Source: Psychroserpens mesophilus
GTDB taxonomy: Bacteria; Bacteroidota; Bacteroidia; Flavobacteriales; Flavobacteriaceae
Assembly (NCBI RefSeq): GCF_000826645.1
Contig: NZ_JXJP01000001.1
Location: forward strand, 372,001 to 436,000
Direction of reading: 5' to 3'
DNA: 64,000 nt
Position numbers and translations under genes: made by a program. Position 1 is the stretch's first letter; every line of letters begins with the position of its first letter. Positions 15,931 to 48,341 of this stretch are shown piece by piece. The notes below the pieces were generated by a model. The model had not been told where the DNA came from. It saw only the letters and a list, made by a program, of their open reading frames with translations, and ran no database searches.

Positions 15931-16533
15931 TTAGAGTTTAAAAACTACCTGTAGCATATATTGAAAATGGTTATTATCAAATTGTCTATCTTTTGCATTG
16001 ACAGCAAATTTTGCAACACCTTGAAGACGTACGCCTATATTGTCTGAAACCCAAAGAGTTCCACCAAAAGCAAGGTTACCTGAAGAGTTAAGCTCATTAA
16101 CTGAGAAAATACCAAATCCTGCACCAGCATAAAGATCTATCCAATCAGCGTTGAACAGGACATCAGAAAAATAGTACTTAATGTAAGTATTCGTTGAGAT
16201 GTACGTATAATCTTTTTTTAATACGCCACCATCAATTTCATTTTTAACTTCATACCCATTAATAGTAACATCTTGCTCTATGGCAAAATATTTTGACCAC
16301 TTGTGTTCTATCGCAATAGCAAATGGGTTTTTAAATTGAAACTCATCTAGGCGAGCAAAAGGTTGTCTTGTTCCTAGACTTCCAACAGCATTTACTCCAA
16401 CACTAAGTTTCCATGGTGAATCTATAAAATCGCTTTCCGAAGCAGTATCATATCTAGTATTAGAAGTGGTTTGTGATTGACTATCAAAAGTAAATAATGA
16501 TACTAGAATTAAAAATAAAACTAAATTTCTCAT
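15931..16533 (-). CDS. Outer-membrane beta-barrel protein
   Basis: A 200-residue protein with a signal peptide (about residues 1-20, ending FDSQSQ) and alternating strands rich in aromatic residues (SVGVNAVGSLG, FAIAIEHKW, NTYIKYYF, DLYAGAGFGIF, GVRLQGVAKFA). The C-terminus is YMLQVVFKL, as in small 8-strand barrels. No enzymatic motif is seen. It has its own well-formed promoter at 16554-16584, so it need not be part of the nucleotidyltransferase operon upstream. Confidence 0.8.
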   Translation of the reverse strand: MRNLVLFLILVSLFTFDSQSQTTSNTRYDTASESDFIDSPWKLSVGVNAVGSLGTRQPFARLDEFQFKNPFAIAIEHKWSKYFAIEQDVTINGYEVKNEIDGGVLKKDYTYISTNTYIKYYFSDVLFNADWIDLYAGAGFGIFSVNELNSSGNLAFGGTLWVSDNIGVRLQGVAKFAVNAKDRQFDNNHFQYMLQVVFKL

Positions 16534-16629: not shown

Positions 16630-17691
16630 TTAAGCTTTGTTCAGCCTAGAATTTTTTCCATATGCTTTAATAATATCCTTTCTGTAGTTTTTGTTGTGTA
16701 TAAAGTGCCATATTCTAGTTGTCAGTAAAGTTTTGAAAAATACAAATTTTGTAATAAAACCATCTATAATTTTCTTCAACCAAGGATGTTTTAATTTTAA
16801 TAAAAATAAGGTATTTATAAAAGAGTTAGACTTATGATTATTAAAATCACTAAAGAAAATTTTAGCTATTGAAAAGTATTTTCTGAAATATGAGCCCTTA
16901 TAAATTTCTTCAAAGTTGTAATTGTATTTTCTGTTAAGAATTAATAAGTCATAAATAGATCTCATGCTGATTCTACTAAATAAATGCCCAGAGTCATTAG
17001 CTTGAAAATTAAGGATAGAATGGGATAATAGGTGTTTGTCTGAGGGTACAAAAATTTGTTGAACAGTTTCTTTCGTGTTTAAAATGTCTGTGACCTCTAA
17101 ATAACCTTTATAAGGATTTAACAGTACTTTATTATGGATTTCAACTGCTGCTAAATTGACATCAGATTGAAGTCTGGGTAAATGCTTGTTATTGAAATAT
17201 TTAGCGCTAATTCCTTGTTTAGTACTTTTGTAATTATGATTTAGCAATAATTGATAGCTTTCATTGATTTGGCTTTCTTGAACTAAAACATCTATATCTC
17301 CTAACATGCGTTCTCCAAAATCTTCAAAATGGTTTTTAACTAAGTAAGCAGCACCTTTTAAAAAAACATAGTTTATTTTGTTTTGATTAAATATGGTTGC
17401 AATCGATTTAATTTCATTCAACAAGGTGATATTTCGATTTCTGTTAATACCAGTGATTTCTTCTAAGTATAACTCTAATTCTTTAGGGATATACTCCAAT
17501 AATTGCTTTTCTTTTAATCTGCAGTAGCACGTCGTTAAAACAAGAAAGTCACTAGCAACAAATACAAATTGTTCCCAATCTATAGCATTGGACACCATTT
17601 TTTGTTTAAGAGCATCTGTTGAGTTTTCAAAACTCAATATATCAGCAATTATCTGTAAAGTGTATTTATATGATTTTTGATGTGAAGACAA
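16630..17691 (-). CDS. PF14907-type nucleotidyltransferase-fold protein
   Basis: A 353-residue protein of the uncharacterised nucleotidyltransferase family. Seen: YVFLKGAAYL (109-117) followed by ERMLGDIDVLV (127-137), the metal-binding DxD pattern of polymerase-beta-like nucleotidyltransferases. A mostly helical, basic C-terminal half contains the histidine/asparagine-rich segment DKHLLSHSILNFQAND. Members of this family often occur with HPr-kinase-like proteins in peptide-modification clusters such as some lasso peptide loci. It is 36 bp downstream of the kinase gene on the same strand, so it is likely cotranscribed. The substrate is unknown. Confidence 0.82.
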   Translation of the reverse strand: MSSHQKSYKYTLQIIADILSFENSTDALKQKMVSNAIDWEQFVFVASDFLVLTTCYCRLKEKQLLEYIPKELELYLEEITGINRNRNITLLNEIKSIATIFNQNKINYVFLKGAAYLVKNHFEDFGERMLGDIDVLVQESQINESYQLLLNHNYKSTKQGISAKYFNNKHLPRLQSDVNLAAVEIHNKVLLNPYKGYLEVTDILNTKETVQQIFVPSDKHLLSHSILNFQANDSGHLFSRISMRSIYDLLILNRKYNYNFEEIYKGSYFRKYFSIAKIFFSDFNNHKSNSFINTLFLLKLKHPWLKKIIDGFITKFVFFKTLLTTRIWHFIHNKNYRKDIIKAYGKNSRLNKA

Positions 17692-17727
17692 TTGTTTTTA
17701 TTAAGTACTTAAAAGTAAGTAAAAACT

Positions 17728-18882
17728 TTATGAATCTTCGAATAGATCTTTAAATTTTGAAATAGCAAAGTTATTATTGCTGTAATTTAACTGATAACAG
17801 TCAATCTTCTTGAACCAATTGATAAACTTCACAGCATGTGCCTCTTTAGGCGATATCCATGAATCTGGAATCAAGGTTTCAAGAATTTTTTCTGAAGAGA
17901 CTAAATCAAGACTATCCTTTTTTGAAGTATCATATTTTACATAAACAATTTTGTGACATGGAAAACTCGAGGCCTGACTCTCAAAATTTAAAATAGGAGG
18001 TACGTATTTAATATTGACTTTTTTGGGTCCGTTTGTATGAGTTTTTAAATCATCAATACCGTTTAAGTATGGTTTTAAAGCTTCAAAAGCTCCTTTTTTA
18101 ATAGATGTAGCCGCTGGATAACGATACAATTCGAGGTTGTTTTCATAAAGCGGCGTAAAATCATCACATAATATGTCATAACCATGTGCCATTAACAATA
18201 CTGAAAGTGTGCTTTTGCCATTTCCAGAGTCTCCAATGATCATTATGGATTCTTTTCCGTTTGAGATGGTTGAAGCATGAAATGTGGCAATCCAATTTTC
18301 TATAATGGTATTATGAATAACATTTGTTAATTCCAATGCAAATTTTCCCTGTAGAAAGTGGAAAGATTTAGTTTTAAAGCTACCTATTGCTGTGCCATTT
18401 TTAATTAGATGCAAATCATCATTTTGTTTGAAAACTTCAAATACCACATCATGATTAGTACTATTGTTTACTGAATGATGTTCAATTTGAGGATGAATTA
18501 AACCTTTTATGACATCTGATTCATAGCGAATAGTTACGATTTTATCATTAAACTTATAAGAATCTTCAATGAAGTTAGATAATGCTTTGTTAGATGAGTC
18601 AATACTACTTATTGATTCGTTTTCTATATTGACATCTTCTAAAAAAGTAGAAATATCATTAGCAAGTGAATTTGCTTCATCTCTTTTTAATTGAAAGTCA
18701 CATGAGATGTTAGTAACAAATGAATCCCGACTTTCGTCAGGATTCAAATATAGTTCTATAAGTTTACTATTAATTTTAGATGTGACTACGTATCTGTTTG
18801 ATTTCTCAAACCAAAGTAAAACAGTATCTTCATTAATATCATGAATTAACTTTGGAGCCAGATTAGCAGCTTTCAAATCCAA
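17728..18882 (-). CDS. HPr-kinase-like protein with PqqD-like N-terminal domain
   Basis: A 384-residue protein in two parts. Residues about 8-88 read like a PqqD-like winged helix (RiPP recognition element): LLWFEKSNRYVVTSKINSKL, then LIELYLN, and a helix DEANSLANDISTFLEDV. Residues about 185-350 form an HprK-like P-loop kinase, with HAST at 202-205, Walker A GDSGNGKST at 217-225 and CDDFTPL (Asp 240/241), the usual family order. In paeninodin-type lasso clusters such kinases phosphorylate a precursor serine. It lies 13 bp downstream of the small peptide gene and upstream of the nucleotidyltransferase gene. Peptide recognition is an inference; no search was run. Confidence 0.8.
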   Translation of the reverse strand: MDLKAANLAPKLIHDINEDTVLLWFEKSNRYVVTSKINSKLIELYLNPDESRDSFVTNISCDFQLKRDEANSLANDISTFLEDVNIENESISSIDSSNKALSNFIEDSYKFNDKIVTIRYESDVIKGLIHPQIEHHSVNNSTNHDVVFEVFKQNDDLHLIKNGTAIGSFKTKSFHFLQGKFALELTNVIHNTIIENWIATFHASTISNGKESIMIIGDSGNGKSTLSVLLMAHGYDILCDDFTPLYENNLELYRYPAATSIKKGAFEALKPYLNGIDDLKTHTNGPKKVNIKYVPPILNFESQASSFPCHKIVYVKYDTSKKDSLDLVSSEKILETLIPDSWISPKEAHAVKFINWFKKIDCYQLNYSNNNFAISKFKDLFEDS

Positions 18883-18895
18883 AAAATATATAGAT

Positions 18896-19057
18896 TTAAT
18901 CGAAAGGGTTTCCTCCTGGATCAGGTGGAGATGAAGCTTGCGCTTGCTTAGGGTTCAAAATAATGAATGTACCAATAGCTGTTAATGCAGCATACTTACT
19001 CATTTTCTTAATTGCCTCCTTACGAGTGATTTGATTTTCGGTATTAATTTTTTTCAT
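18896..19057 (-). CDS. 53-aa exported peptide, candidate precursor (copy 1)
   Basis: The frame is open from 19081 but the ATG at 19057 (MKKINTENQ) is chosen because copy 2 starts at the matching place. The peptide has a basic N-region with TRKEAIKKM (a degenerate Tat-like or Sec signal), a hydrophobic stretch AALTAIGTFIIL, a probable signal-peptidase site AQA|SS, and a 12-residue tail SSPPDPGGNPFD rich in Pro, Gly, Ser and Asp. No family is recognised. It is 76 bp downstream of the 2084-aa T9SS gene and 13 bp upstream of the kinase gene. The hypothesis is that the tail is the product and the first 41 residues are the leader. Confidence 0.75.
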   Translation of the reverse strand: MKKINTENQITRKEAIKKMSKYAALTAIGTFIILNPKQAQASSPPDPGGNPFD

Positions 19058-19133: not shown

Positions 19134-22100
19134 TTAGTCTATTATAACCTTCTTAGTTTTTTCCTGACTGTCATTTTGAACAGTTACAATATATACACCA
19201 GAGTTAATGCTTGATACATCAATTCGGTTTTGTAAAAGAGCACTATCAAGTTTTGTACTTAATACCAATCTACCAGCTATATCATAAAGATTTAGCATAG
19301 TGTTGTTAGCTAATAGTTGTCCATTTACTACAAGTTCATCTGAAGCTTTTAGCGTATAGATATCTAAATAGTCTAGACCATTCTCTATTGTTGATAATGC
19401 GTCTTCCGAAGTTCTAAGGAAGAAGCGTCCAGTTCCAGATAAATCTGAAGCAGGTGTTATCACATAATCAGAATCATTTAACAATGTAGTTGTGTTAGCA
19501 ACTGTGTCATCTAAGAATACTTGAACATTTGCAGGTAATGTAGACTCTGCAATACTAAATCTAAGTTCCTCACCAGCTACTGCATTTACTCCTAATGGAA
19601 TAGTAACATCGCTAACGTCAATTGAATTCAAAGTCTGTAATGTTAACTTATCTCCAGTATTATTTTCTACTAATGAAGAGTAGATTGAGAATGCAGGAAG
19701 TGTATCACCGTAATGACCAGCGTCATATCCTAAATCGAATCCTAAACTTGCATTCGGATTGAAGAAGAAATCTGTTCCATAGGCATTACCATTTGAAGTC
19801 AATTTAAGCTTCATGTAAACTAACTCTGCATTTCTTCCTACGATGTAATCGTCTGATGTACCAACTGTTCTCCAACTTGGATCAAATTGAATATTACCAT
19901 TGGCAGCAGCACTTACAAAGAAACCTTGACCTGGAGTAACTAATGGATTCAATGCTGCATTAGCTAAGTTTACTAACGTCCAGCCATTTATTGCTGAACC
20001 ATCATAACCCCAAATACCAGCTGTAGTTGGATCAAATGTAGATAAGTTTGTTTGAACAAAGTTAAATGAATCCATATAAGAAGGGTAAGGGTTACCAACT
20101 AAATTCCATTCTTGTTGAACTGGACCACCATTTACAACAGGTGTTGCTATAGCACCATTCTGTGCTGTTCCAGTAAACGTTACTGACCCATTATCAGAAG
20201 TTGCAGCTCTGTATCCTACACCAGGATCTAGTGTTGACGACTCAGTACCTGCCCAAGTTACAAATTGACCAAGTGCTTTATCATAAGGACCGAATAGGAA
20301 TAATGAACCATTATTGAAAATGTTAGGGTTAGCAGAAGCAACAGCACTAAATGCTTGTCCTGTCAAAGGAGCAGACACTAAATCATTACTACCTGTTGTT
20401 CCGGAACCATTAACATTAACATGACGCTCATAACTCATTGTACCATTCACAGTACCATCAAGGATTAAACTTGAATACGAAGTTGATGAAGATTCCATTA
20501 ACATTCCAGCAGCAGTAGTTACTGAAGCTCCTGAAGGAACTGTAACTCCACCACCTGGTCTTACTGTAAATGTATTACAGTCTGTGTCACCTGTCATAAC
20601 AGCATTACCTGTTGCGACAACAATATCACCAGGAACTGTAGTTCCTGTTGGATCACTTGGAACCCAAGTTCCATCGTAATACACAAACGACTCATCACCT
20701 GTACAAGTTATATCCATTTGGAATAATCCAGTATCTCCAGAGTTATAACCTTCAACAGAAATCCAGTATTGAACTCCAGCAACTGCAGTAAATGTAACTT
20801 CAGCTAAGTATTCAGGAGCACCAGATTCATCGTAACCAGCAGCAACAAAATTTAAGTTACCAGAAGTTCCTGTGAATATAAGTATTTCAGTATCAAAATC
20901 AGACCCAGCATTAATTGTACTTAGTGTCACATCTTGACCAGTTCCTAGGAATCCATACCAAACATTTGGTGAATCTGTATCTGAATTAAATCCAGGAGCA
21001 TCAGGAGCATCATCTTCATCTAAAGTAGCATTCTCTGTATTTCCACTAACAGAACCATCTGCACAAGTAATTGTAATAGCATTAGCAAAATCATCATTTG
21101 CAGGAGGACAACCTGTAGCAAAGTTACCTAATGCAACATTACAATTAGTATCTACTGCAATAATTTCTAAAGTTACAATATCACCTACGTTGTATGTTCC
21201 TGTTGTGTTTGTGCCAGCAGTTAATGGGTAGGTATTTGTACCATCACTAATAACGCTTCCTGGATCACCTGCATCAGCTACTTCAACATCTACAGTAAAT
21301 GTACCAGCACCACAATTATCTACTACTGTTGATCCCGAAACATCTGCAGGAGTACAAAGTGGAGGGTAAGATAAACAAATGTCAAAAACACCTGTACTAA
21401 AAGTTTCTGTCCAAATTTGTAAGTAATATGTTGTTGATGGTGATAAACCAGCAATTGTGTTTAAACCTGCTGCTAATCCACTATCACAATAAATTTCGCT
21501 TCCTCCACATGCATCATATAATGCTATTTCTAAACTTCCAGGAGTTCCTGAAGTTACTTCAATATTTATAGCAGTTGAAACTGCGTCAGTAGCAACGGTA
21601 AACCATACGTCTTGTTCTGTAGTTGCAGGACTTGATAATTCACAACTTCCAATAGTACCACTATTAGTCGCTCCGCCATTATCAAATGATGTCGTTGCAC
21701 ATGAACCAAAAGCACCAATTGGAGCTGCTATAGCTGTAGCACATGTATCATTTGCTGGTGGTGGTGGTTGAGTACCAATACACACTTCAAATGAACTAGT
21801 TTGCCCAGTTGTTGACGTCCAAGAATAAACTCTTAAGGTGTATTCTGTACCAATTGTTAAACCAGTAGCAGTACTCGAGTTTGGATCACTACATAATAAG
21901 TTTACTAATGAACCACAAGTGCCTTCCCATAGTGAATGGTAAAGATCTGTTGTGCCACCTGTAATATTTATTAAATCTATAGTGTGTTCTGTTGCTGTTG
22001 CGGTGAACTTAAACCATACATCATCATCTTCTGTTCCACTACACGTAGCGTCACTTTCTCCAGAAGCTGTAGCACTTTCAATTGTTCCAGCTGTTACTGA

Positions 22101-25100
22101 ACCACAATTGTAATCTGAATTTACTGTAAGTGTAATAGCATCAACACACTCATCATTCACAGGAGGAGCAGGAGGTGTACCAATACATACATCAAAAGTA
22201 GTTGTTTGTCCGGCTGTTGCTGTCCAAGTATAAACTCTTAAAGTGTATTGTACTCCTATCGTTAATCCCGTAGCTACACTAGAGTTAGGATCGCTACATA
22301 ACAAATTCGTTAAAGAACCACAAGTACCTTCCCATAATGAATGGTAAAGATCTGTTGTGCTTCCTGCAGCGTTTAATAAATCTATAGTATGTGAAGTAGA
22401 TGTTGCAGTAAATGTAAACCAAACATCATCATCTTCAGTTCCAAAACAAACAGTATCACTTTCTCCAGAAGCTGTTGCACCTTCAATGGTAGCAGACGTT
22501 GTTGCTGTACAACTATCATCAGCGTTAACTGTTAATGCTATTGCATCAGCACATTCATCATTTTCTGGAGGACAAATGGCTAAGCCGAAATCACCGAGAG
22601 AAACTTCACAAGACACATCTATATTGTCTATATCAAGTGTTACGGTTGTTCCAATAGCATAATCTATTGTAGAATACGTTCCAGCTCCAGCAGTAATATC
22701 AATAACATTGGTACCATCTGTAATCTGTGTAGCCGTTCCAGAATCAGCAACTACAATATCTATTCTAAACGTATCTGTTCCACCAGGACCACAATCATTA
22801 ACTATAGTTGTGCTCGTAATTGAAGCTGGACTACAACTAAGACAAGTAACATCATAAGCAATCGCAGTTTGATCAAATTCAGCACATGAATTAGAACCAT
22901 CTGCATCAAGTACCACAAAAAGATTACCACTAGGTGAAACTACAGTTAATCCTGTTAAGGCTCCTATACCTGTAGCATCACTATCATAGAGTAGTGTACC
23001 TGTATTATCTAAACCATCATATATTCTTAAATCATCATAAGTTGTACCAGCGAATGTATTTTGTTCAATAGTACCTGCTGTAAATTCAATAGATAATGAA
23101 CTTCCATCAGATGAGCTGTATGAATTTTCAATTAAATCATTACTGTCATAACAAAAGCCATCAGAAACTATTCCAGTACCAGCACAATCAACTACAACAG
23201 GGCAAGTATCGATAAAGCTTCCTAAATCGATATTACAACTTGTAGTTGCGCCGTGAACTACAGTTAAATTAACAGGAGTTCCTGTAGCGAAAGGTCCTGC
23301 AACAGCAGTTGTTCCAGAAAAAGGATATGTAGTTGTTCCATCTGATACACCAGTTGCATCGGCTACATCAGAAAGTACTACTGCTACTTCATATTGTGAA
23401 GTACCACAAAGGTTTGTTACTGTAGCAGTATCCAATGTGGCAGGTAAACATTCTATATCAGAAATACATAATTCATACGGACCATCATTAAAAGTTTCGT
23501 TCCATAGTTGTAAATAATATGTTGTACTAGGAGCTAAACCATAATACGAGTTTATACCAGTTGCTAATCCTGAATCACAAATAACTTCAGTTCCACCACA
23601 TGCGTCATAAATAGCTAATTCCACATTTCCAGGAGTACCAGAGGTTACTTCTATATTTATACCTGCAACTGCATTAGTAGTAAACTCATACCACACGTCT
23701 TGTTCAGTAGTTGCTGGACTTGATAATTCACAGCTTCCAATAGTTCCACTGTTTGTTGCTAGTGTTGTATCATAAGCTAAAGTTTCACAAGAACCAAAAG
23801 CACCAACAAGTGCTGTTAAAGCTCCTGCACACGTATCATTATCTAAAGGACATGCATCTTGAAAAGGACCTTGGTTATAGTCACAAACTGGACTTGTATG
23901 AGAAACTGCATATTCAGCCGGAGTTCCTTTAGCATATCCTGAAAAAGTATATGTTAATGTTCCAGGTACAACAAGTTCAAAAGGGAACGTAACGTTATCT
24001 GCTAAAGGAGTTGTTCCTACTATAACAAGTGCATCTCCAAGATCGGTAAATGTAATTTCTAAATCATATAAACCATTGCCACAGTCTTCAATAACAGTAT
24101 TACTTGCAATTACCGACGGTGCACAGGTTAAACATTCAACATTCCAATCCCATTGTGCTGTACAACATGTACTACTAGCGGCACAACTTACTGAGCCATC
24201 AGAATCTACAGCAACCGTAATTGTATCACCACTAGAGGAGAATACCAAACCAGATAAATCACCACCATTACCTCCTCTGAACAATTCAGTTGTACCGTCA
24301 GAATCAAAAATAACTAAGTCATCACAACAGCTTTCAATGCCACCAGCGTTAAATGTCACTCTTAAAGGAGAACCATCAGTACTTTGGTATATGAAACTGG
24401 TTGTGTCGCTATCTCCATAACAATACGTTGTATTAATAGGTGCAGCTGCACAATCAACAGTTGTTGGAGTTGGAGTTGTTGTAAAATTTTGAGGGCCTAC
24501 CCAAGCACCATAATCTGTACCACCGCAATAAGCTCTTACAAAAACTTCATAATCTGTTAAAGGAAGAAGAGAACCCACTGTATAAGGTGGAGCAGAGTCT
24601 GTAGTTGCATTAATTGCTGTACCAGAATCTCCAGGACCTGGATTAGCAACCGCAACTTCTTGAACAATAATTTCCCAATCGGTTTCAGCAGAACCACTAG
24701 GTGTCCAGCTTACTGTAACCTCAGTATCAGTAAAACTATCAACAGTTAAACCTGTTACGTTAAGACAAGCAGGTGGAATACCATCAATATAATTAAATTG
24801 AACGTTTGGTCTGTTACCATTTGTAGTGGTTGTGTTATTAGCACATGCTGTACCACCATCTACTCTGTAGTGTCGAGAACCACTAGTTTGAGTAGTTGTT
24901 CTTACTTGACCATAAGGACTTGTAAAAGGATTTGATCCATCAGAACAAACCTCTACAAGCACGTTATCAACACCATTCCATACAAAATTGGTGTCAAAAG
25001 CAATCATATCAAAAACACCTGCAGTAGTTACTGTAGGGTTATAATCGAATGCATTTTTAACAACAGTGGTTGGAGACGCATCATGCGCAGCCGAGTTCGT

Positions 25101-25388
25101 TGCTGTTGTGTGACCCATTTTAATGGTATAGCCTAACAGTGCACCTCCACCATAATCACCAGCAATAGACCAGCCTAATGCTGTAATTTCGTCATTTGGT
25201 GTTAAAGAAGCACTTAGTTCAGCAGCTGTATAAACAGCCTGATATCTAAATGCATTGTAGTAACCGTGAATTGGATCTGCTCCAGTACTTGATGTCGTAC
25301 TAGTTCCTGTTCCAATTACGATTGATTGCGCATCAGATTGCCAACAAAAGACAAGTAATGCGATGAGAAAGAATGTAACTTTTTTCAT
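19134..25388 (-). CDS. Giant T9SS-secreted multidomain surface protein (A)
   Basis: A 2084-residue protein. In order: signal peptide (1-20, ending QSDAQS); a ~180-residue N-terminal domain; a fibronectin type III domain (about 205-305); two CUB-like domains (about 315-420 and 740-855); at least four prepeptidase-C-terminal-like domains starting NDxC/NDEC, two of them a recent tandem copy; then the shared ~500-residue C-terminal module and a type A T9SS sorting domain ending GVYIVTVQNDSQEKTKKVII. It is therefore exported by Sec, then T9SS, and anchored at the surface. No catalytic motif is seen, and adhesion or binding is the likely role. The peptide-kinase genes follow it. Confidence 0.88.
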   Translation of the reverse strand: MKKVTFFLIALLVFCWQSDAQSIVIGTGTSTTSSTGADPIHGYYNAFRYQAVYTAAELSASLTPNDEITALGWSIAGDYGGGALLGYTIKMGHTTATNSAAHDASPTTVVKNAFDYNPTVTTAGVFDMIAFDTNFVWNGVDNVLVEVCSDGSNPFTSPYGQVRTTTQTSGSRHYRVDGGTACANNTTTTNGNRPNVQFNYIDGIPPACLNVTGLTVDSFTDTEVTVSWTPSGSAETDWEIIVQEVAVANPGPGDSGTAINATTDSAPPYTVGSLLPLTDYEVFVRAYCGGTDYGAWVGPQNFTTTPTPTTVDCAAAPINTTYCYGDSDTTSFIYQSTDGSPLRVTFNAGGIESCCDDLVIFDSDGTTELFRGGNGGDLSGLVFSSSGDTITVAVDSDGSVSCAASSTCCTAQWDWNVECLTCAPSVIASNTVIEDCGNGLYDLEITFTDLGDALVIVGTTPLADNVTFPFELVVPGTLTYTFSGYAKGTPAEYAVSHTSPVCDYNQGPFQDACPLDNDTCAGALTALVGAFGSCETLAYDTTLATNSGTIGSCELSSPATTEQDVWYEFTTNAVAGINIEVTSGTPGNVELAIYDACGGTEVICDSGLATGINSYYGLAPSTTYYLQLWNETFNDGPYELCISDIECLPATLDTATVTNLCGTSQYEVAVVLSDVADATGVSDGTTTYPFSGTTAVAGPFATGTPVNLTVVHGATTSCNIDLGSFIDTCPVVVDCAGTGIVSDGFCYDSNDLIENSYSSSDGSSLSIEFTAGTIEQNTFAGTTYDDLRIYDGLDNTGTLLYDSDATGIGALTGLTVVSPSGNLFVVLDADGSNSCAEFDQTAIAYDVTCLSCSPASITSTTIVNDCGPGGTDTFRIDIVVADSGTATQITDGTNVIDITAGAGTYSTIDYAIGTTVTLDIDNIDVSCEVSLGDFGLAICPPENDECADAIALTVNADDSCTATTSATIEGATASGESDTVCFGTEDDDVWFTFTATSTSHTIDLLNAAGSTTDLYHSLWEGTCGSLTNLLCSDPNSSVATGLTIGVQYTLRVYTWTATAGQTTTFDVCIGTPPAPPVNDECVDAITLTVNSDYNCGSVTAGTIESATASGESDATCSGTEDDDVWFKFTATATEHTIDLINITGGTTDLYHSLWEGTCGSLVNLLCSDPNSSTATGLTIGTEYTLRVYSWTSTTGQTSSFEVCIGTQPPPPANDTCATAIAAPIGAFGSCATTSFDNGGATNSGTIGSCELSSPATTEQDVWFTVATDAVSTAINIEVTSGTPGSLEIALYDACGGSEIYCDSGLAAGLNTIAGLSPSTTYYLQIWTETFSTGVFDICLSYPPLCTPADVSGSTVVDNCGAGTFTVDVEVADAGDPGSVISDGTNTYPLTAGTNTTGTYNVGDIVTLEIIAVDTNCNVALGNFATGCPPANDDFANAITITCADGSVSGNTENATLDEDDAPDAPGFNSDTDSPNVWYGFLGTGQDVTLSTINAGSDFDTEILIFTGTSGNLNFVAAGYDESGAPEYLAEVTFTAVAGVQYWISVEGYNSGDTGLFQMDITCTGDESFVYYDGTWVPSDPTGTTVPGDIVVATGNAVMTGDTDCNTFTVRPGGGVTVPSGASVTTAAGMLMESSSTSYSSLILDGTVNGTMSYERHVNVNGSGTTGSNDLVSAPLTGQAFSAVASANPNIFNNGSLFLFGPYDKALGQFVTWAGTESSTLDPGVGYRAATSDNGSVTFTGTAQNGAIATPVVNGGPVQQEWNLVGNPYPSYMDSFNFVQTNLSTFDPTTAGIWGYDGSAINGWTLVNLANAALNPLVTPGQGFFVSAAANGNIQFDPSWRTVGTSDDYIVGRNAELVYMKLKLTSNGNAYGTDFFFNPNASLGFDLGYDAGHYGDTLPAFSIYSSLVENNTGDKLTLQTLNSIDVSDVTIPLGVNAVAGEELRFSIAESTLPANVQVFLDDTVANTTTLLNDSDYVITPASDLSGTGRFFLRTSEDALSTIENGLDYLDIYTLKASDELVVNGQLLANNTMLNLYDIAGRLVLSTKLDSALLQNRIDVSSINSGVYIVTVQNDSQEKTKKVIID
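21752..22561 (-). repeat. 405-bp tandem duplication inside gene A
   Basis: Two in-frame units of 405 bp (135 codons), 21752-22156 and 22157-22561, encode near-identical PPC-like domains starting NDEC and containing ATASGESD, TEDDDVWF and LYHSLWEGTCGSL. Landmark stretches such as GTACCAATACA repeat exactly 405 bp apart (21772 and 22177). Confidence 0.85.
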
Positions 25389-33543: not shown

Positions 33544-33705
33544 TTAATCAAAAGGGTTTCCTCCCGGATCAGGTGGAGAAGATGCTTGAGCTTGTTTAGG
33601 GTTTAATATAATAAATGTACCTAATGCTGTTAGTGCAGCATACTTGCCCATTTTTTTAATGGCATCCTTTCTCGTTATGTTATCTTGATGTGTGTTTATC
33701 TTCAT
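33544..33705 (-). CDS. 53-aa exported peptide, candidate precursor (copy 2)
   Basis: A second copy of the small peptide. The ATG at 33705 (MKINTHQDN) is chosen; the open frame runs further up into the end of gene D but that part is not conserved with copy 1. The last 33 residues differ from copy 1 at one position only (Leu for Ile), whereas 12 of the 33 codons differ, so the protein sequence is under strong selection. The signal-like N-terminal part and the AQA|SSPPDPGGNPFD end are the same. It begins 10 bp after the gene D stop, and no kinase or nucleotidyltransferase gene follows it; a terminator does. Confidence 0.78.
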   Translation of the reverse strand: MKINTHQDNITRKDAIKKMGKYAALTALGTFIILNPKQAQASSPPDPGGNPFD

Positions 33706-33715: not shown

Positions 33716-36700
33716 TTATTTAATGATAACTTTTTGTGATTTCTGTTGTTCGTTATTTTGAACATTAGCAACATATACACCAGCACTTAACGATGACATA
33801 TCAATACGATTTTCAGAAACTGTATTGTCAAGTTTTGTGCTTAATACTAATCGACCTTGAATATCATAAAGATTAAGCATTGTATTGTTCTTTAATTGCC
33901 CATTAATAACTAACTCTTTAGATTGGTTTAACATAGAAATTGTTAAGTTGTCAAGAGTATTCTCAATTGTAGATAATGATGTATCATTAGTTCTAAGAAA
34001 GAAGCGTCCAGTTCCAGACAATGCTGAGGAAGGAGTAAACACATAATCAGAATTCGTTAATAACGTTGATGTGTTCGCTACTGTGTCATCTAGAAATATC
34101 TCTACGGTTGATGGTAATGAATTGACCAAAATTGAAATCGTTATCTGTTCACCCTGATTTGCATTAATTCCTATTGGAATGGTAGTATTATCCAAGTTTG
34201 TTGTATTTAGTGCTTGTAATGCAATAGCTTCTCCTTCATTATCTTCAACTAGATGTGAGTAAATTGAAAAAGCAGGAGGTGCGCCAAATAATTCGGCATC
34301 AAAACCTAAATCAAATCCAGCACTCGCATTAGGGTTAAAATAAAAATCGGTACTATATGAATTTCCACCTGCGCTAGCATTAAGAGTAAAATAGATTAAT
34401 CCACCATCACCATTACGACCAACAATAAAATCATCAGTAGTTCCAGTAGATCGCATAGCTGGAGTAAACTCTAAGTCGTAAAGTGGAGCATTTGTAGCAT
34501 CGGCACTTACAAAGAATCCTTGACCAGGAGCGATAACTGTAGACGGAGTAGTAGTCGCTAGGTTGTATATCGTCCATCCATTAGTTGCACTACCATCGTA
34601 ACCATAAATAGCAGCAGATCCAGCATCAAACAAGTTTAGATTTGTTACACCACCAACATCATGATTTAAAAACGATTGTACATTTAAATATGAAGGGTAA
34701 GGATTACCTACAAGGTTCCATTCTGCAGAGACTGAGCCACCATTGATGATGTCATTTGTAATGGTTCCATTTTCAGCTACACCAGAAAATGTTACTACAG
34801 AGTTATCTGAAGTTGCAGCTCTATATCCAACACCAGCATCGAGTGTTGCTGTTTCAGTGCCAGCCCAAGTTACAAATGTACCACCAGTTTTTTCAAATGG
34901 TCCAAATAAATATAATGTGCCATTATTAAAAATGTTTGGGTTACCAGCAGCAAGATCGCTAAAAGGCTGACCTGTCAATGGTGCAGAAATTAAATCATTA
35001 CTTCCTGTAGTACCCAAACCATTAATATTAATATGGCGATCATAAAGAATACTTCCAGCAACTGTTCCATCTAAGATTAAACTAGAATAGCTAGTTGAGC
35101 TAGATTGTAATTGCAAAATATCGGTTGGTGTAAGCGTTACTCCAGAAGACACAGTAATGCTTGCGCCAGGTAAAACATCGATTCTGTTACAAGTAGTATT
35201 CGAATTAAAAGTTGCATCACCTGATACTATAACAATATCATCACCAGCTGTTGCTACACCGTTTGGATCACTAGGAGACCAAGTGCCATTAAATGTATAA
35301 GTCACAGGAGCTACATATGCAGCACCAGGAGTACCACCTGAATAATTTCCTGAAGCTACCCAATTTGCAGCATCTGTATTGTCGAATGTTACATCGATTA
35401 ATTCTAATGAAGGACCATTACCATCTGCAGCAGTTGGCCAAGGTGATCCGTCATCATAGGTAACAGTATCAATAGAAATATTTGCACCACTAGGATCAAA
35501 TAAGAGTTCTATGGTTGCAGTACTATTAATTAAATTATTACTATCATTTGTAGTTTCAACAGGAGTAGCGATAGCACTTACATCAGGCGTAAATGGGTTG
35601 TCGTTATTATAAGTTCCATCACCATTACTACCTAAAGCGATTGTTAAATAGCTTCCAGCTGTAATAACTGTCCCTCCAAAATCAAAAGTGCTTCCGTCAT
35701 AACTTAGTCTCCAGTTAGAATCAAGAGTAATATCTGCTCCTGAAGCATTGTAGATTTCAATCCATTCATCATCGGAACCAGATGAATTGTACATGATTTC
35801 AGAAATAACGATATCTCCTGGTAATGGTGTACCACCATCATTATCTTGAATGTCTAAATTAAATGTAGTATTAAGACCAACAGTAGCATTGTTACCACCT
35901 GCAACGTTTTGAATCTCAAAAGTCATGGTTTCAATTGGTTCAACCAAAGCATCATCTGTAATGGTAACTGTAACCGTTTGATTTGCTGAAGTTCCTGCTG
36001 GGAATGTTACGGTTTGAGTCACGTATGAATCAATGTCTGCAGCATCACCTGACGTTAATACGACATCAAATGTAGTATCATTTATTGCATCTTCGAAAGT
36101 AATTTCGAAAGTTAAGTCGTAAGTTCCGGCATTTTCAATCACTGAATCAGAAGTGGACGTAAACTGAACAGATGTGTCTGCAGTACCTTCAACAACTAAG
36201 AATTCAGAAACGCTGTAACCTTGTCCACCACCATTCTCAGAAAATTCGAAACCAACTTCTAATGTTGTTGCTCCTGAAACATCCAAAGAAAGTACTGAGT
36301 AATTTACAGGATCACCATTGCTAGATGCAAAAGCGGTCTCTACTCGTGTTCCACCATCTAATATGTAGAAATATGAAAAATTATTTTCATTAGCACCTAC
36401 GTTCACACCAGTAGCAGTGATGTCTACAACATTAATTCCTGTAACATCAATGACCTGACTTGTGAAAATACCTTGTCCGCCCCAATCATCACTTAATAAC
36501 TCACCGGCAATAACTTCCCATGAATTAGAAGAGCTGTCTGTTAATGGTGCAGTATCGTAAGAAACTGTCCATTGGTTTGGAGCAGTTCCAAATGGTCCAG
36601 CAGATGCAGGTCCTGCGGCTGGAGGTGAAGCCGATGAGTGCGCTGGAAAGCCATCACCATCATTAGAAAAATCAGCATCATATAAAGTTCCTGGTAAAAC

Positions 36701-38509
36701 AGGTTCGTCATTCGCTAAAATTGTTAGGTCGAATGAACTATTTGCCCCAACAGCTGCAGCATTTCCACCAGCAACGTTTTGAATTTCAAACGTTAAGATT
36801 TCATCTGTTTCTTCAAGAGCATCATCTGTGATGGTGATTGTTAAAGTCTGATCTGCAGAAGTGCCCGCAGGAAAAGTAACTGTTTGAGTTGTATATGAAT
36901 CAATATCGGCAGCATCACCAGATGTTAAAACAACATCAAAAGTCGTTGCATTTGTAGCGTCTTCATTGGCGATAGAAAATACTAAATCGTAAGTCCCAGA
37001 ATCTTCAGCAACACTTACTGCAGTTCCAACAACGTTTACTTCAGTAGCAAGTGCACCTTCCTGAATGATAATTTCAGTGATGTTCCATTCTTCTGGACCA
37101 GAACCTGCAGCTGCATCATAAAAGAAGGCAAGGTATGCTGTACCAGTGATTCCAGAAGCATCTACTGATGTCACTGAATCTGGAGAAGCTCCAAAACCAG
37201 TTGATGTATTATTAGGGTCAAATGCTAAAGCAGTCCATGTAGCAGTTGTTGGATCTCCAAAACCAGGGTAATCTGTAGAGTATCGTAATTCAAATTCTTC
37301 AAAATCATTAATATCATCTCCAAATTCTTCTGATGTCGTAACTGCAATAGTTTCATTACTCGTTAAATCAAAATCAATACTAAAGTTAGAGATTAACCAG
37401 TCAACATCATCAGGATTAGGAAAACCATTCATAGTATAAGCACCAGGAGCACAAGTCCAAGAATTACTACCCACTTCACTAAATGCAACCCATTGCGCAG
37501 TTCCACAATCTGAAAAATCTTCAGAATAAGGAAGAACAATTGTTGGAGGAGCATCATTGTTAGTGATGGTTAAATCAAAAGTGCTAGGAATTCCTGCAAC
37601 AGCACTACTTCCACCAGTTACATTTTGTATTTCGAAAGTTAATGTTTCGTCAGCTTCAAACAAGGCATCATCTGTAATCGTTATGGTAAGCGATTGATCT
37701 GCAGCTGAACCTCCTGGGAAGGTAACCGTTCCGGTAACATAATTATCAATATCTGTATTATCACCAACTGTTAACACTACATCAAAACTTGTTGCTGCAG
37801 CATCTTCATTTAAAATTGTGAATTCCAAATCAAATGTGCCTACACCTTCTGATACTGATGAAGATGTTCCAATAAAACTAACTTCAGTATCAGTACTTGG
37901 ACCAGAAGCACCAATCCAACTACCTGGATCGAAATCAGCAGGAGCAGATTGAGCAGCATTTGTGTGATTTGTGCAGCCTCCTACGGTTGAATCAGCCCAA
38001 ACATTCCATTCGGCTTCATTCCAAGTTGCGTTTCCAGATGTTACTGAAGAAGCTCTCTCAGCTCTACCATCTTCAAACTCATGACAAGTTCCAGAACCAT
38101 CTTCACCAGGCACTCCAAAAATATCTACGATTGTTGAGGTGTTATCAACTAAAGCAATTTGGTCATCTCCGTTACTATCAACTGGTCCACCTGTACCAAG
38201 TTGAATAACTGTTCCACTGAAACTTGCAAATGTTCCTGAAAAGGTAGCACTATTGGCAGCAAAAATAATAAATCCTCCTGCTGGAATAGTACCACTTAAG
38301 GCTACATCACTTTGAGGTGTAGCATTATTATTTGTCCATCTTCTGAGGGCCCAAGTGGATAAATCAACAGAAGCGCCTCCTGCATTGTAAAGCTCTACAT
38401 ATCTAGATCCAGCACTATTGTCAGGATCTGCAAGCTCTGTAATGAAAACTTGGCCAAACCCTAAACCTGTCATCATTAGGGCGATTAAAAGTGTGTAAAT
38501 GTTTTTCAT
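33716..38509 (-). CDS. Giant T9SS-secreted protein with lamin-tail and Calx-beta domains (D)
   Basis: A 1597-residue protein. In order: signal peptide (1-19); lamin-tail domain (about 20-160, VFITELADPDNSAGSRYVEL); three Calx-beta domains (starting about 205, 500 and 750), each with the DSxGTYDL-like start and ITITDDALxExxETLTFEIQN end; interspersed jelly-roll-like regions; a second lamin-tail domain (GDIVISEIMYNSSGSDDEWI); then the shared C-terminal module and a type A T9SS sorting domain ending GVYVANVQNNEQQKSQKVII. It is a predicted calcium-binding surface adhesin, with no catalytic motif. Peptide copy 2 follows directly. Confidence 0.88.
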   Translation of the reverse strand: MKNIYTLLIALMMTGLGFGQVFITELADPDNSAGSRYVELYNAGGASVDLSTWALRRWTNNNATPQSDVALSGTIPAGGFIIFAANSATFSGTFASFSGTVIQLGTGGPVDSNGDDQIALVDNTSTIVDIFGVPGEDGSGTCHEFEDGRAERASSVTSGNATWNEAEWNVWADSTVGGCTNHTNAAQSAPADFDPGSWIGASGPSTDTEVSFIGTSSSVSEGVGTFDLEFTILNEDAAATSFDVVLTVGDNTDIDNYVTGTVTFPGGSAADQSLTITITDDALFEADETLTFEIQNVTGGSSAVAGIPSTFDLTITNNDAPPTIVLPYSEDFSDCGTAQWVAFSEVGSNSWTCAPGAYTMNGFPNPDDVDWLISNFSIDFDLTSNETIAVTTSEEFGDDINDFEEFELRYSTDYPGFGDPTTATWTALAFDPNNTSTGFGASPDSVTSVDASGITGTAYLAFFYDAAAGSGPEEWNITEIIIQEGALATEVNVVGTAVSVAEDSGTYDLVFSIANEDATNATTFDVVLTSGDAADIDSYTTQTVTFPAGTSADQTLTITITDDALEETDEILTFEIQNVAGGNAAAVGANSSFDLTILANDEPVLPGTLYDADFSNDGDGFPAHSSASPPAAGPASAGPFGTAPNQWTVSYDTAPLTDSSSNSWEVIAGELLSDDWGGQGIFTSQVIDVTGINVVDITATGVNVGANENNFSYFYILDGGTRVETAFASSNGDPVNYSVLSLDVSGATTLEVGFEFSENGGGQGYSVSEFLVVEGTADTSVQFTSTSDSVIENAGTYDLTFEITFEDAINDTTFDVVLTSGDAADIDSYVTQTVTFPAGTSANQTVTVTITDDALVEPIETMTFEIQNVAGGNNATVGLNTTFNLDIQDNDGGTPLPGDIVISEIMYNSSGSDDEWIEIYNASGADITLDSNWRLSYDGSTFDFGGTVITAGSYLTIALGSNGDGTYNNDNPFTPDVSAIATPVETTNDSNNLINSTATIELLFDPSGANISIDTVTYDDGSPWPTAADGNGPSLELIDVTFDNTDAANWVASGNYSGGTPGAAYVAPVTYTFNGTWSPSDPNGVATAGDDIVIVSGDATFNSNTTCNRIDVLPGASITVSSGVTLTPTDILQLQSSSTSYSSLILDGTVAGSILYDRHININGLGTTGSNDLISAPLTGQPFSDLAAGNPNIFNNGTLYLFGPFEKTGGTFVTWAGTETATLDAGVGYRAATSDNSVVTFSGVAENGTITNDIINGGSVSAEWNLVGNPYPSYLNVQSFLNHDVGGVTNLNLFDAGSAAIYGYDGSATNGWTIYNLATTTPSTVIAPGQGFFVSADATNAPLYDLEFTPAMRSTGTTDDFIVGRNGDGGLIYFTLNASAGGNSYSTDFYFNPNASAGFDLGFDAELFGAPPAFSIYSHLVEDNEGEAIALQALNTTNLDNTTIPIGINANQGEQITISILVNSLPSTVEIFLDDTVANTSTLLTNSDYVFTPSSALSGTGRFFLRTNDTSLSTIENTLDNLTISMLNQSKELVINGQLKNNTMLNLYDIQGRLVLSTKLDNTVSENRIDMSSLSAGVYVANVQNNEQQKSQKVIIK

Positions 38510-41673: not shown

Positions 41674-43047
41674 ATGCTCAATATATCTGGTCTTATTGAT
41701 AATATAAAAAAGTACTTTGTTAAAGGGCACTCACGAGATAAGTTAATTAAGAAAAATATCCTTTTTTCTTATGTCTATAAAGCTCTTGATATTTGTTTAG
41801 GTTTTTTGCTTGTTCCTTTAGTATTAAGCTATTTGAATGAAGAACAATATGGAGTATGGCTATTATTGTTCTCTTTAACAGGATATTTTAGTTTTATGGA
41901 CGTTGGTTTGAGTCATGGTTTAAGAAATAAATTTGCCGAGGCTAAAGCAAAAGATGAAGTTGAAAAATTACGATATTATGTCAGTACGACGTATGCATTA
42001 TTAGCAATTATTGGGTCTGTTTTTTTTATTGTTTTTTTTATTGTGAATTCTTTTGTGAATTGGGAAAGGATTTTAAATACTAAAATCATTTTAAATGATG
42101 ATTTGGCAACACTATCATTATTTGTTTTTGGTGCATTTTCTTTACAATTTGTTTTCAAGATTATTCTTACGATTTTAACTGCAGATCAAAGGCCTTCCAT
42201 TATAAACTTGCAAGGATTTTTGATAAAATGTTTACAGGTTGCAACGATACTTGTTTTAATAAAATTTACTGAAGGTTCTTTATTGATACTAGGTGCGGCA
42301 TTTAGTATGATTCCTATTGTTAGTTTAATAGGTTTAACAATTTATTATTTTAATAAAGATTACAAATATATAAGGCCTAAAATGGCTTACATTGATTTTT
42401 CTTATCTAAAAGACATTATGAACGTTGGGATTAAGTTTTTCTTTATAACAGTCGCAGCCATAGTTCTTTTTTCAACAGATAATTTAATCATTACGCAGCT
42501 CTATGGTCCTGAACAGGTAACACCTTATCAAATTGCTAATAAGTATTTTGGTATGTCTTTAATGTTGTTTGCGATAATTGTACAGCCGCTTTGGTCAGCT
42601 GTAACTGATGCCTTTCACAAAGATGATTTTGACTGGATTAAAAATACCATGAAAAAAATGACCAAAATCTGGTTGCTTTTTTCCGCTGGAACATTATTCA
42701 TGCTTATCATATCTCCATATTTTTTCAAAATTTGGTTAGGTGATAAGGTTCATATTTCTTTGACATTATCTTTTTTCTGGTTTGTTTTTATTGTCATACA
42801 ATCTTACAATATGATATATACCTATTTTATAAATGGAGTTGGAAAACTTAAGGTTCAATTGTATATTACACTTTTTTCAATTTTATTTAATATACCTGCA
42901 TCTATTTTTTTAGCGAAAACATTAAATATGGGTGTGTCTGGAGTGATAATGGCGACAACTATATCAATGCTGTTGAGTGCAGTAGTAAAAACAATACAAT
43001 ACAACAAGATCATCAACTTAAGGGCACATGGTGTATGGAACAAATAA
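41674..43047 (+). CDS. Polysaccharide flippase (Wzx-like, MOP superfamily)
   Basis: A 457-residue membrane protein with about 12-14 hydrophobic segments. The N-terminal region (YVYKALDICLGFLLVPLVLS, then YLNEEQYGVWLLLFSLTGYF) is typical of polysaccharide transporters that flip undecaprenyl-linked repeat units across the inner membrane. It is the first gene of the polysaccharide locus, after a 687-bp spacer. The downstream sulfotransferase start overlaps its 3' end by 13 bp, which indicates cotranscription. The substrate cannot be read from the sequence. Confidence 0.88.
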   Translation: MLNISGLIDNIKKYFVKGHSRDKLIKKNILFSYVYKALDICLGFLLVPLVLSYLNEEQYGVWLLLFSLTGYFSFMDVGLSHGLRNKFAEAKAKDEVEKLRYYVSTTYALLAIIGSVFFIVFFIVNSFVNWERILNTKIILNDDLATLSLFVFGAFSLQFVFKIILTILTADQRPSIINLQGFLIKCLQVATILVLIKFTEGSLLILGAAFSMIPIVSLIGLTIYYFNKDYKYIRPKMAYIDFSYLKDIMNVGIKFFFITVAAIVLFSTDNLIITQLYGPEQVTPYQIANKYFGMSLMLFAIIVQPLWSAVTDAFHKDDFDWIKNTMKKMTKIWLLFSAGTLFMLIISPYFFKIWLGDKVHISLTLSFFWFVFIVIQSYNMIYTYFINGVGKLKVQLYITLFSILFNIPASIFLAKTLNMGVSGVIMATTISMLLSAVVKTIQYNKIINLRAHGVWNK

Positions 43048-43772
43048 AAAAACTATTTTACAGTAGATTCATTTGGAAACTACCCTATAACCTTAGGTAT
43101 TATTTTTTTAAATTTAAACAGCCTAAGGGATTTAGACAGAAGCAAGCCTTACGTAAGATTGATACTAAAGGTGATCATATGTCATTAAAAGGCTTTGACG
43201 ATTTAAAATGTATCTTTGTGCATATTCCCAAAGCTGCAGGAGTTTCAGTAAACAAAGCCCTATTTGGAAATTATGGTGGAAGTCACCTTAAACTAAAAGA
43301 TTATCAATTAATCTTTAATAAAAAAGAGTTCTATAAATACTATAAATTTACCTTTGTTAGGAATCCATGGGATCGATTAGTGTCAACCTATTTTTTTTTA
43401 AAAAATGGAGGTTTTCATGAAAATGATAAAGCTTGGTTTGATGATAATTTATCACAATTTGAAGATTTTGAAGATTTTGTTTTAAACTGGTTAAACGATG
43501 AAAATAGTTACAAATGGATTCATTTTATTCCGCAATATGAATTTATAACGTTAAATAACAAAGTGCTTGTTGATGATATATTTAAGTTAGAAGATATTAA
43601 TGAGAGTATAAAAATTATATCTAAAAAACTTAACATACCAATTGAATTGAAGCATGAAAATCAAAATCCAAACAGGGACAGTAAATACCGTGAGTATTAC
43701 ACACCAGAAATGAAAGACATTGTAGGTTTGGTCTATAAAAAAGATATAGAGCTATTCGATTATCAATTTTAA
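43035..43772 (+). CDS. Sulfotransferase family 2-like protein
   Basis: A 245-residue protein with the PAPS-binding motifs FVHIPKAAGVSVNKALFG (5'-phosphosulfate loop) and FTFVRNPWDRLVSTYFF (3'-phosphate site), as in family 2 carbohydrate sulfotransferases. It probably transfers sulfate from PAPS to a sugar of the repeat unit, in the cytoplasm. The start overlaps the flippase gene, and a 24-bp gap separates it from the next glycosyltransferase. PAPS synthesis genes are not in the window. Confidence 0.85.
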   Translation: MEQIKKLFYSRFIWKLPYNLRYYFFKFKQPKGFRQKQALRKIDTKGDHMSLKGFDDLKCIFVHIPKAAGVSVNKALFGNYGGSHLKLKDYQLIFNKKEFYKYYKFTFVRNPWDRLVSTYFFLKNGGFHENDKAWFDDNLSQFEDFEDFVLNWLNDENSYKWIHFIPQYEFITLNNKVLVDDIFKLEDINESIKIISKKLNIPIELKHENQNPNRDSKYREYYTPEMKDIVGLVYKKDIELFDYQF

Positions 43773-43796
43773 AACACAACGAATTAAAATCAGTAC

Positions 43797-45047
43797 ATGA
43801 AAATATTATGGCTTTCAAATAATCCATGCTATGCTATTGAAAAGCTTTCACCAAAGACTCAGTCTGGTGGTTGGCTAAAGGCTCTAAATTATCATATAGT
43901 TAATCAAGACGATATAGAACTTAGTGTTTGTTTTTACTGGCCGGTTGCTCTGGAGCCTTTTGAATTTCATAATACAATGTACTATCCCATAGTGACTTCG
44001 AAACCAAAAAGTTTTTTTAAAAAGATTGGTCATAAAATTTCCGGAGATAATAATCAGAATGCAGAGATTAAAAAAATATATGACATTGTAAATAAAGTAA
44101 ATCCAGATCTAATTCATGTTCACGGTACCGAATTAAATCTTGGTTTAATTCAATATGAAACCTCAATTCCAGTCGTCATTTCTATTCAGGGAATTTTAAG
44201 TCCTTATTATGAAAAATATTTTTCTGGTATTCCGGAAAAATATTTGAAACGAGTCAAGAAGTGGAATTTCATGTCGCTTTTTAAAGCACTTAACAGTGCC
44301 TTTAAATTGAATGCAGAAAGAGAACGACACATTCTTAAAGTAGCTCATTATATTATGGGTCGCACAGACTGGGATAAAAGAGTAACACGATTATTAGCTC
44401 CAAAAAGCACCTACTTTGTTGGTAATGAAATTCTTCGTAAAGCGTTTTATAATACCAACCATATATGGAATAAATCGAATTTTGATACACCTTTAAAATT
44501 AGTGACAACTTGTGGTGATGTAGCTTATAAGGGTTTTGAATTGATAGTTAAAACTGCAAAACTATTACATGATTACGGCATAGAGATAGAGTGGTATGTT
44601 ATTGGTTTAAATGAACATAATGTAACTACAAAAGCTGTTAAGAGCTGGTTAAAACATGATCTTGACCATGTTGGAATTAAATTACTTGGTGTGATGAATG
44701 AAAATGAACTCGTGAAAACATTATTAGAATCAGATATCTATTGTCAGGTGAGCCATATTGAAAATAGTCCGAATAGTTTATGCGAAGCCATGATGTTAGG
44801 AATGCCGCTTGTAGCAACCAATGTAGGAGGAACCTCTTCAATGATGAAAAGTAATGTTGAAGGCATACTGGTTCAGGAAGGTGAACCTTATGAACTGGCA
44901 GGTGCTATTCTTGAATTGAAAAATGATTTTAAAAAGGCCAAAGCTTATGGTTTGAATGGAAGAAAAAGAGCTTTGGAACGACATAAGCCTTCAAAAGTGG
45001 TTGAGGAAGTTATAACAACGTATAACACAATTATTCAAAAATCTTAA
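43797..45047 (+). CDS. Glycosyltransferase family 4
   Basis: A 416-residue GT-B enzyme that transfers a sugar from a nucleotide donor to a growing lipid-linked glycan. Seen: an N-terminal acceptor domain with DLIHVHGTELNLG near 105-117, and the donor-binding C-terminal part with ENSPNSLCEAMMLGMPLVAT (EX7E-like) followed by NVGG. It lies in the polysaccharide operon; the next gene starts 3 bp after its stop. The donor and linkage are unknown. Confidence 0.87.
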   Translation: MKILWLSNNPCYAIEKLSPKTQSGGWLKALNYHIVNQDDIELSVCFYWPVALEPFEFHNTMYYPIVTSKPKSFFKKIGHKISGDNNQNAEIKKIYDIVNKVNPDLIHVHGTELNLGLIQYETSIPVVISIQGILSPYYEKYFSGIPEKYLKRVKKWNFMSLFKALNSAFKLNAERERHILKVAHYIMGRTDWDKRVTRLLAPKSTYFVGNEILRKAFYNTNHIWNKSNFDTPLKLVTTCGDVAYKGFELIVKTAKLLHDYGIEIEWYVIGLNEHNVTTKAVKSWLKHDLDHVGIKLLGVMNENELVKTLLESDIYCQVSHIENSPNSLCEAMMLGMPLVATNVGGTSSMMKSNVEGILVQEGEPYELAGAILELKNDFKKAKAYGLNGRKRALERHKPSKVVEEVITTYNTIIQKS

Positions 45048-45050
45048 ATC

Positions 45051-45644: not shown

Positions 45645-45648
45645 TGAA

Positions 45649-46395: not shown

Positions 46396-46483
46396 TACAC
46401 AAATGTAAGTAGACTTAATAGTCTGTAATGGTGAAGGTAAAAAAAGCTGTACAACATAATTTAAACTAAAGAGAGTAAGAATA

Positions 46484-48037: not shown

Positions 48038-48341
48038 AATGTTAAACGGTCATTTTTACAATTGATGCAGTATAATTTATCGAATTTTGAGATTGTTTAG
48101 TTTAAGTTTTTTCATAAAATTGAAAATGTTTTAATATTTTTGGCGAGGTTTTAAAGTAAAGAGGGATCATAAATTGGTACATCAACTAATGTTCCCTGTT
48201 AGAGATCTACAACTTTTATACTTGGGTAAAAATACCAAATATTAAATCTAAAATTTTCTTATTAATGTAATTGTATGTTAGTAAAAGTTTTAAAGGAATA
48301 AAAAATTGCCGAAAAATATTAATGGAGTAATTGACAAAAAA
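48038..48341. other. 304-bp gap between the ligase gene and the carrier protein gene
   Basis: AT-rich non-coding sequence, unusually long for this operon. No clear promoter, hairpin or open frame can be supported. If translation of the carrier starts at the TTG at 48306 instead of the ATG at 48342, the gap shrinks to 268 bp. Confidence 0.4.

Follow-up and report, generated by a model that had tools for sequence, protein, structure and literature searches.

The peptide, kinase and nucleotidyltransferase genes

A stretch of 64,000 nucleotides of the Psychroserpens mesophilus genome (Bacteroidota, Flavobacteriaceae; contig NZ_JXJP01000001.1, positions 372,001 to 436,000), hereafter the window, carries on its minus strand three adjoining genes: one for a 53-residue peptide (18896..19057), one for an HprK-like kinase of 384 residues with a TTG start (17728..18882) and one for a 353-residue PF14907 nucleotidyltransferase-like protein (16630..17691). 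The peptide has the sequence MKKINTENQ...SSPPDPGGNPFD, and 13 bases separate its stop codon from the TTG-started kinase frame. An original prediction, made from the letters of the window, had put this trio forward as a peptide-modifying system, and both the reality of the three genes and their adjacency were confirmed. The trio occurs in two phyla, and this suggests a surface peptide of a little-known kind, tagged with phosphate, the leader of which also acts as its export signal.

The peptide gene, delineated by translation, by a peptide profile (A2) and by counts over aligned columns, is not a chance open reading frame (ORF), because synonymous codon differences exceeded non-synonymous ones in 13 of 15 pairwise comparisons among six peptide genes (equal in one, fewer in one) and because profile A2 matched 32 of the 299 genomes of the family at E <= 0.001. 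Nine further genomes, with best peptide E values from 0.037 to 0.088, were dropped and are not among these matches, and weak matches outside the family, in G367 and G457, were rejected as the N-termini of proteins of about 300 residues (TRKEF or SRREF).

Judged by an A-Q-A site, which sets the predicted border, the peptide consists of a Tat-like (twin-arginine translocation) signal or leader of residues 1-41 (19057-18935) and a tail of residues 42-53 (18934-18899). A Tat-like pattern, R-R/K-x-x-I/L-K, lies in the N-terminal half. T26, L34 and P36 are invariant in 36 of 36 aligned peptides, R12 and A15 in all 32 that reach them, and K21, Y22, A24, A27, G29 and T30 are kept in 35 of 36. Conservation as tight as this is unusual for a plain signal peptide, and it suggests that the N-terminal half is specifically recognised. 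The tail varies among relatives in both length and sequence, and its best-conserved residue is Ser43, which is serine in 35 of the 36 aligned peptides and tyrosine in one. The original prediction had named Ser42 or Ser43 as the modified residue; position 43 (codon 18929..18931) stands as the candidate phosphate acceptor, whereas position 42, serine in only 10 of 36, is not conserved. As for known families, PF10518 matched the peptides of two relatives below its cut-off, and among five peptides scanned against NCBIfam only that of Methylobacterium matched anything (TIGR02811 formate_TAT, 0.016, below cut-off).

Properties of the kinase and the transferase

The P-loop domain of the kinase (about residues 195-380) is HprK-like, as had been predicted. 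The closest named families are the HPr-rel-A models of NCBIfam (TIGR04352, TIGR04353), although scores here fall far below their curated cut-offs: TIGR04352 HprK_rel_A matched the window kinase at 2.7e-13 with 49.7 bits against a cut-off of 200, and in family genomes it matched 7 of 41 at E <= 1e-10 and 0 of 41 over the cut-off. The top four PDB matches of the kinase family profile are HPr kinases, and PF07475 was found in 22 of 23 family members (E <= 1). All 36 aligned kinases keep H202, K223, D240 and D241; together with G217, G220, G222 and S224 these residues are spaced in the window kinase like H148-G163-G166-G168-K169-S170-D186-D187 of BsfK (PMC10368454). One relative departs at G217 and one at G220, and either serine or threonine occupies position 224. 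An AlphaFold2 model of the kinase alone was unusable (pLDDT 34, pTM 0.20).

The N-terminus of the kinase, about residues 8-90, is probably PqqD-like. This part of the original prediction held well for the alphaproteobacterial relatives, where a profile of 29 PqqD-like sequences matched the kinase N-termini at 97.5% (E 8e-12) and PF05402 matched the Methylobacterium relative over its cut-off (4.9e-9), but only moderately for the family of the window kinase (46%, E 2e-4, with the best of 16 decoys at E 0.021). PF05402 gave no match at E <= 0.001 in the kinase's own genome, and PqqD was not among the 25 listed of 51 Pfam families for the 23 members of kinase family A1. A further alphaproteobacterial relative (L069) matched TIGR04353 PqqD_rel_X weakly (0.0022).

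The transferase matched PF14907, described as a family of uncharacterised nucleotidyltransferases, over its cut-off (9.6e-30). It carries GDIDVLV at residues 131-137, and the D-x-D motif is present in 35 of 35 aligned transferases. For PsmN of the pseudomycoidin system, addition of a hexose to a kinase-phosphorylated serine has been reported, with nucleotidylation followed by a host glycosyltransferase remaining possible (PMC9266682).

Co-occurrence of peptide and kinase in Bacteroidota

The original prediction had proposed the joint conservation of peptide and kinase as a check, and it was borne out. Among the 299 family genomes the kinase was present in 29 (profile E <= 1e-15), the peptide in 32 and both in 28 (Fisher p 5.5e-34, a value which ignores kinship); the kinase profile derives from 23 loci that had been located by their peptide, which biases the comparison, and of the 29 genomes G040, G048, G055, G067, G123 and G149 lay outside it. 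Among 296 genomes of the phylum, a full-length kinase was found in four (G000, G131, G157 and G383), and clear peptide matches occurred in the same four. In 28 further phylum genomes the kinase profile matched the P-loop half only (E 4e-16 to 8e-7).

A kinase lies within 250 bp behind the peptide in 22 of 37 peptide ORFs; the peptide matches in L060, L064 and L065 are interrupted by in-frame stops, yielded no peptide ORF and were left out of this total. The two genes also co-occur when unlinked: in G123, a single contig, distances of about 370 and 490 kb separate the kinase from the two peptides, and in G383 the one kinase and the six peptides lie on different contigs. At L044 (8233-9367, genome G040) the kinase gene is broken into two ORFs, the peptide and transferase frames being open. 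No relatives were found in viral contigs.

Relatives in Alphaproteobacteria

In a plasmid collection, which covers plasmids and no chromosomes, kinase matches in 30 distinct records led to 13 kinase-opened loci (L068-L071, L161-L165, L215 and L217-L219), with L164/L165 and L071/L217 as near copies. Twelve of the 13 have, nearby, a PF14907-like gene and a small ORF whose product combines an RR motif with a hydrophobic stretch and, close to a serine, an A-x-A-like site, in a gene order which varies among the loci; L216, fetched by its peptide, stands outside this count. RR is present in all 7 aligned alphaproteobacterial peptides.

An alphaproteobacterial peptide model was built from seven seeds, six recognised by motif or by eye and one (L071) by the Bacteroidota profile (E 0.01). 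Run against 57 sequences (56 loci and the window), it matched the kinase-adjacent peptide of the six other loci that possess one, the peptide of three peptide-only loci and, at E values between 5e-5 and 0.035, 31 of the 37 ORFs for Bacteroidota peptides; no further ORF reached E <= 1. With L164 and L217 being near copies of seeds and L216 peptide-fetched, three of four independent non-seed loci were matched (L215, L218 and L219), L161 being missed. A plasmid search with the Methylobacterium peptide returned only itself. One peptide-fetched locus, L212, has its Tat-like peptide copy near genes for UDP-galactopyranose mutase and a glycosyltransferase, and in Leisingera a cadherin-like giant protein and a polysaccharide export gene lie beside the trio.

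Genomic surroundings

On the minus strand of the window the order of genes is a protein sorted by the type IX secretion system (T9SS), peptide 1, kinase, PF14907 protein and an outer-membrane beta-barrel-like protein. The first, a large secreted protein of 2084 residues (19134..25388, minus strand; PF18962 6.1e-11), lies directly upstream of the peptide. The last (15931..16533, minus strand) matched PF13505 below its cut-off (0.0072), and a relative of it stands behind the transferase in 11 fetched loci. A second peptide gene (33544..33705, minus strand) encodes 53 residues, 88% identical and with the same 12-residue tail; no kinase adjoins it, and directly upstream is another T9SS-sorted protein (33716..38509, minus strand). 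These T9SS partner genes, the Tat-like signal, the second peptide copy and the alphaproteobacterial relatives all go beyond what the original prediction had described.

The pairing recurs among relatives: a T9SS-sorted ORF (at least 70 residues, same strand, ending at most 405 nt upstream) precedes 29 of the 37 peptide ORFs, and of the eight without one, three lie at contig edges. In G383, all four inspected peptides of six are behind a T9SS-sorted gene. The window itself holds five consecutive T9SS-sorted genes (19134, 25692, 31119, 33716 and 38812; 19134-40986, minus strand) which share a long C-terminal module, and a peptide stands behind only two of them.

On the plus strand, at 41674..61303, a polysaccharide locus encodes, among the ORFs scanned, a flippase-like protein, glycosyltransferases, a sulfotransferase and hexapeptide transferases, and is a possible partner of the trio. 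Its sulfotransferase-family gene is at 43035-43772; a putative sulfotransferase gene is described in some Firmicutes lasso clusters (PMC8498205). An asparagine synthase-like gene is also found in the locus, 32 kb from the trio. At least 10 of 11 genomes have a GT1 gene no more than 46 kb from the peptide; this limit was set after the distances had been seen, the genomes are related to one another, and G131 has no near match among the 6 listed of 13 matches. The GT1 background of 15-18% in three genomes is a lower bound, and the binomial value is only indicative. As synteny is common to related genomes, this proximity is only suggestive.

Comparison with known systems

The nearest published counterparts are the linear polyphosphorylated peptides (LPPs; lppAKBSDN, Popov et al. 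2026, PMC13381572), whose clusters contain an HprK-like kinase and a nucleoside triphosphate (NTP) transferase and which are stated to be restricted to Bacillota. The trio shares with them a linear precursor with a conserved N-terminus and a variable C-terminus, and an HprK-like kinase, the H-K-D-D set occurring in all 36 kinases here with the spacing of BsfK. Further likenesses are an NTP transferase gene (PF14907 here and in relatives; LppN in LPPs), a phosphoserine, predicted in our case, near a signal-peptidase-type cleavage site (the LPP core begins AQS), and frequent siting near polysaccharide loci. There are also differences. The LPP leader has a YxxP motif, whereas the trio has a Tat-like signal peptide and no YxxP in the window peptides or the A2 consensus. 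The RiPP (ribosomally synthesised and post-translationally modified peptide) recognition element (RRE) of LPPs is a discrete protein, while here the PqqD-like domain, if real, forms part of the kinase, and no separate RRE gene was seen between neighbouring genes at the trio. LPPs employ a dedicated archaeal-type signal peptidase and an MsbA-like exporter; no signal peptidase I (SpI)-like peptidase or MsbA-like exporter was recognised among the neighbours at 15037-40986, which were not searched with specific models. Finally, T9SS genes accompany the trio here. The system is thus not an LPP by membership, lacking the YxxP leader and the discrete RRE, yet probably works like one; what is new relative to LPPs is the signal-peptide leader, the pairing with T9SS proteins and the occurrence in two other phyla. 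The view of the original prediction that the system would belong to a different class holds only partly, as linear phosphopeptides made with an HprK-like kinase and an NTP transferase were described as LPPs in 2026.

Phosphorylated lasso peptides (paeninodin with PadeK, pseudomycoidin with PsmK and PsmN, and bsf with BsfK) likewise have an HprK-like precursor kinase with the H-K-D-D set, a PqqD-like RRE and, in some cases, a nucleotidyltransferase homologue (PMC9266682, PMC8498205, PMC10368454), and BsfK is a demonstrated precursor kinase (PMC10368454). Here, by contrast, the serine lies in a tail behind a signal peptide rather than in a lasso, and neither a macrolactam cyclase (asparagine synthetase-like) nor a B2 protease was recognised among the neighbours scanned. 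A literature search by title and start of abstract, with most subscription papers and all preprints outside its coverage, found no publication on the peptide-kinase-PF14907 trio among the papers listed.

Proposed mechanism and alternative explanations

The interpretation of the original prediction is partly supported, its broad lines being mostly correct, and the trio probably constitutes a ribosomally made linear peptide system in which the kinase phosphorylates Ser43, the transferase decorates the product and a Tat-like signal directs it to a role at the cell surface. The kinase would bind the conserved N-terminal half of the peptide, probably through its PqqD-like domain, and in the cytoplasm the HprK-type P-loop domain would phosphorylate Ser43, which adjoins the signal-peptidase site. 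The PF14907 protein would then probably add a hexose or a nucleotide to the phosphate, as reported for PsmN. Since the N-terminal half of the peptide resembles a Tat signal, export and removal of the leader may be left to the general Tat (or Sec) pathway and signal peptidase I, with cleavage predicted at the A-x-A site. A short phosphopeptide rich in Ser, Pro and Gly would thus end up outside the inner membrane and may work with the adjoining T9SS surface protein, perhaps also with surface polysaccharide.

Several observations weigh against this interpretation. The phosphate, and the sugar or nucleotide, are extrapolated to these peptides from the homologues PadeK, PsmK, BsfK, LppK and PsmN. 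Among the 32 Bacteroidota peptides covering the Tat site, 30 have RK and two RN, which are poor Tat motifs, and TatC is not discriminating, as 48 of 49 genomes encode it, irrespective of whether they have the peptide. The PqqD assignment of the window kinase is weak, and the N-termini of the Bacteroidota and alphaproteobacterial kinases gave no direct match (E 0.24). Co-occurrence is imperfect: the kinase is found without the peptide in G048 (assembly 82% complete) and the peptide without the kinase in G136, G275, G283 and G295 (82-92% complete), while the peptide matches of G151 and G295 contain in-frame stops, and without both the peptide and joint counts become 30 and 27. As for the Alphaproteobacteria, the Bacteroidota peptide profile matched 2 of 9 loci (E 3e-4 and 0.01), the other peptides having been recognised by motif among small ORFs; the Methylosinus locus L161 has a kinase with neither partner nearby; the Sinorhizobium-type peptide was found in 92 plasmid records (E <= 0.01) and the kinase in 23 (E <= 1e-10), under differing limits; and no kinase or transferase lies within about 6 kb of the peptide-fetched Sinorhizobium loci L212, L213 and L214.

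An alternative which we regard as unlikely is that the peptide is a small Tat- or Sec-exported accessory of the T9SS surface protein, and that the kinase and transferase modify something else, e.g. a polysaccharide or lipid intermediate, the operon being shared because all serve a common surface structure. The frequency with which peptide ORFs follow a T9SS-sorted gene, including those inspected in G383, and the proximity of GT1 genes would fit such a role. Nevertheless, kinase and peptide also co-occur when unlinked, the trio is found in Alphaproteobacteria, with none of its annotated neighbours there bearing the name of a T9SS protein, Ser43 is conserved above any other residue of the tail, and kinases that share the motif have precursor peptides as their substrates (PMC10368454, PMC13381572). 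Still less probable is a division of labour in which the transferase is the main modifier, nucleotidylating the serine, with the kinase left to prepare or trim the group. The conserved D-x-D and the description of PF14907 as a nucleotidyltransferase family speak for it; against it, the homologue PsmN is reported to hexosylate an already phosphorylated serine, with nucleotidylation still possible (PMC9266682), and in the LPP test deleting lppN made no visible difference (PMC13381572). That the kinase is an ordinary HPr(Ser) kinase or another metabolic regulator, with the peptide as an unrelated neighbour, is suggested by its HprK-like domain and yet highly improbable, given the near-complete co-occurrence of kinase and peptide and the fact that HPr (PF00381) was matched in 0 of 24 carrier genomes, with the control positive in 7 of 14 known genomes.

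If the modified-peptide interpretation is correct, a RiPP-type modification would exist beyond Bacillota which uses a general export signal as its leader and needs no dedicated exporter or peptidase. It would also provide an unstudied kinase-transferase family with a concrete substrate and residue, and make the role of phosphopeptide systems at the cell surface testable. A more speculative extension, to which we attach only a small likelihood, is that kinase and transferase build a Ser-phosphate-sugar on the exported peptide, as the starting point of a glycan. The resulting phosphoglycopeptide would prime or anchor polysaccharide at the cell surface and link it to the adjoining T9SS protein, with the same device in Bacteroidota and Alphaproteobacteria.

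Other kinase-like genes

A lookup of the P-loop pattern in genome contigs gave at least three loci, two of them HPr-kinase-like beside genes of the phosphotransferase system type and the third a stand-alone kinase-like gene, none of which was helpful. Weak kinase-like genes at 11 loci of other Bacteroidota (L201-L211) had no peptide by either peptide model and were not counted as members. At L205-L211, PqqD-like genes lie within a few kb of HprK-like genes without the peptide, and these gene pairs are possibly other peptide-modifying systems.

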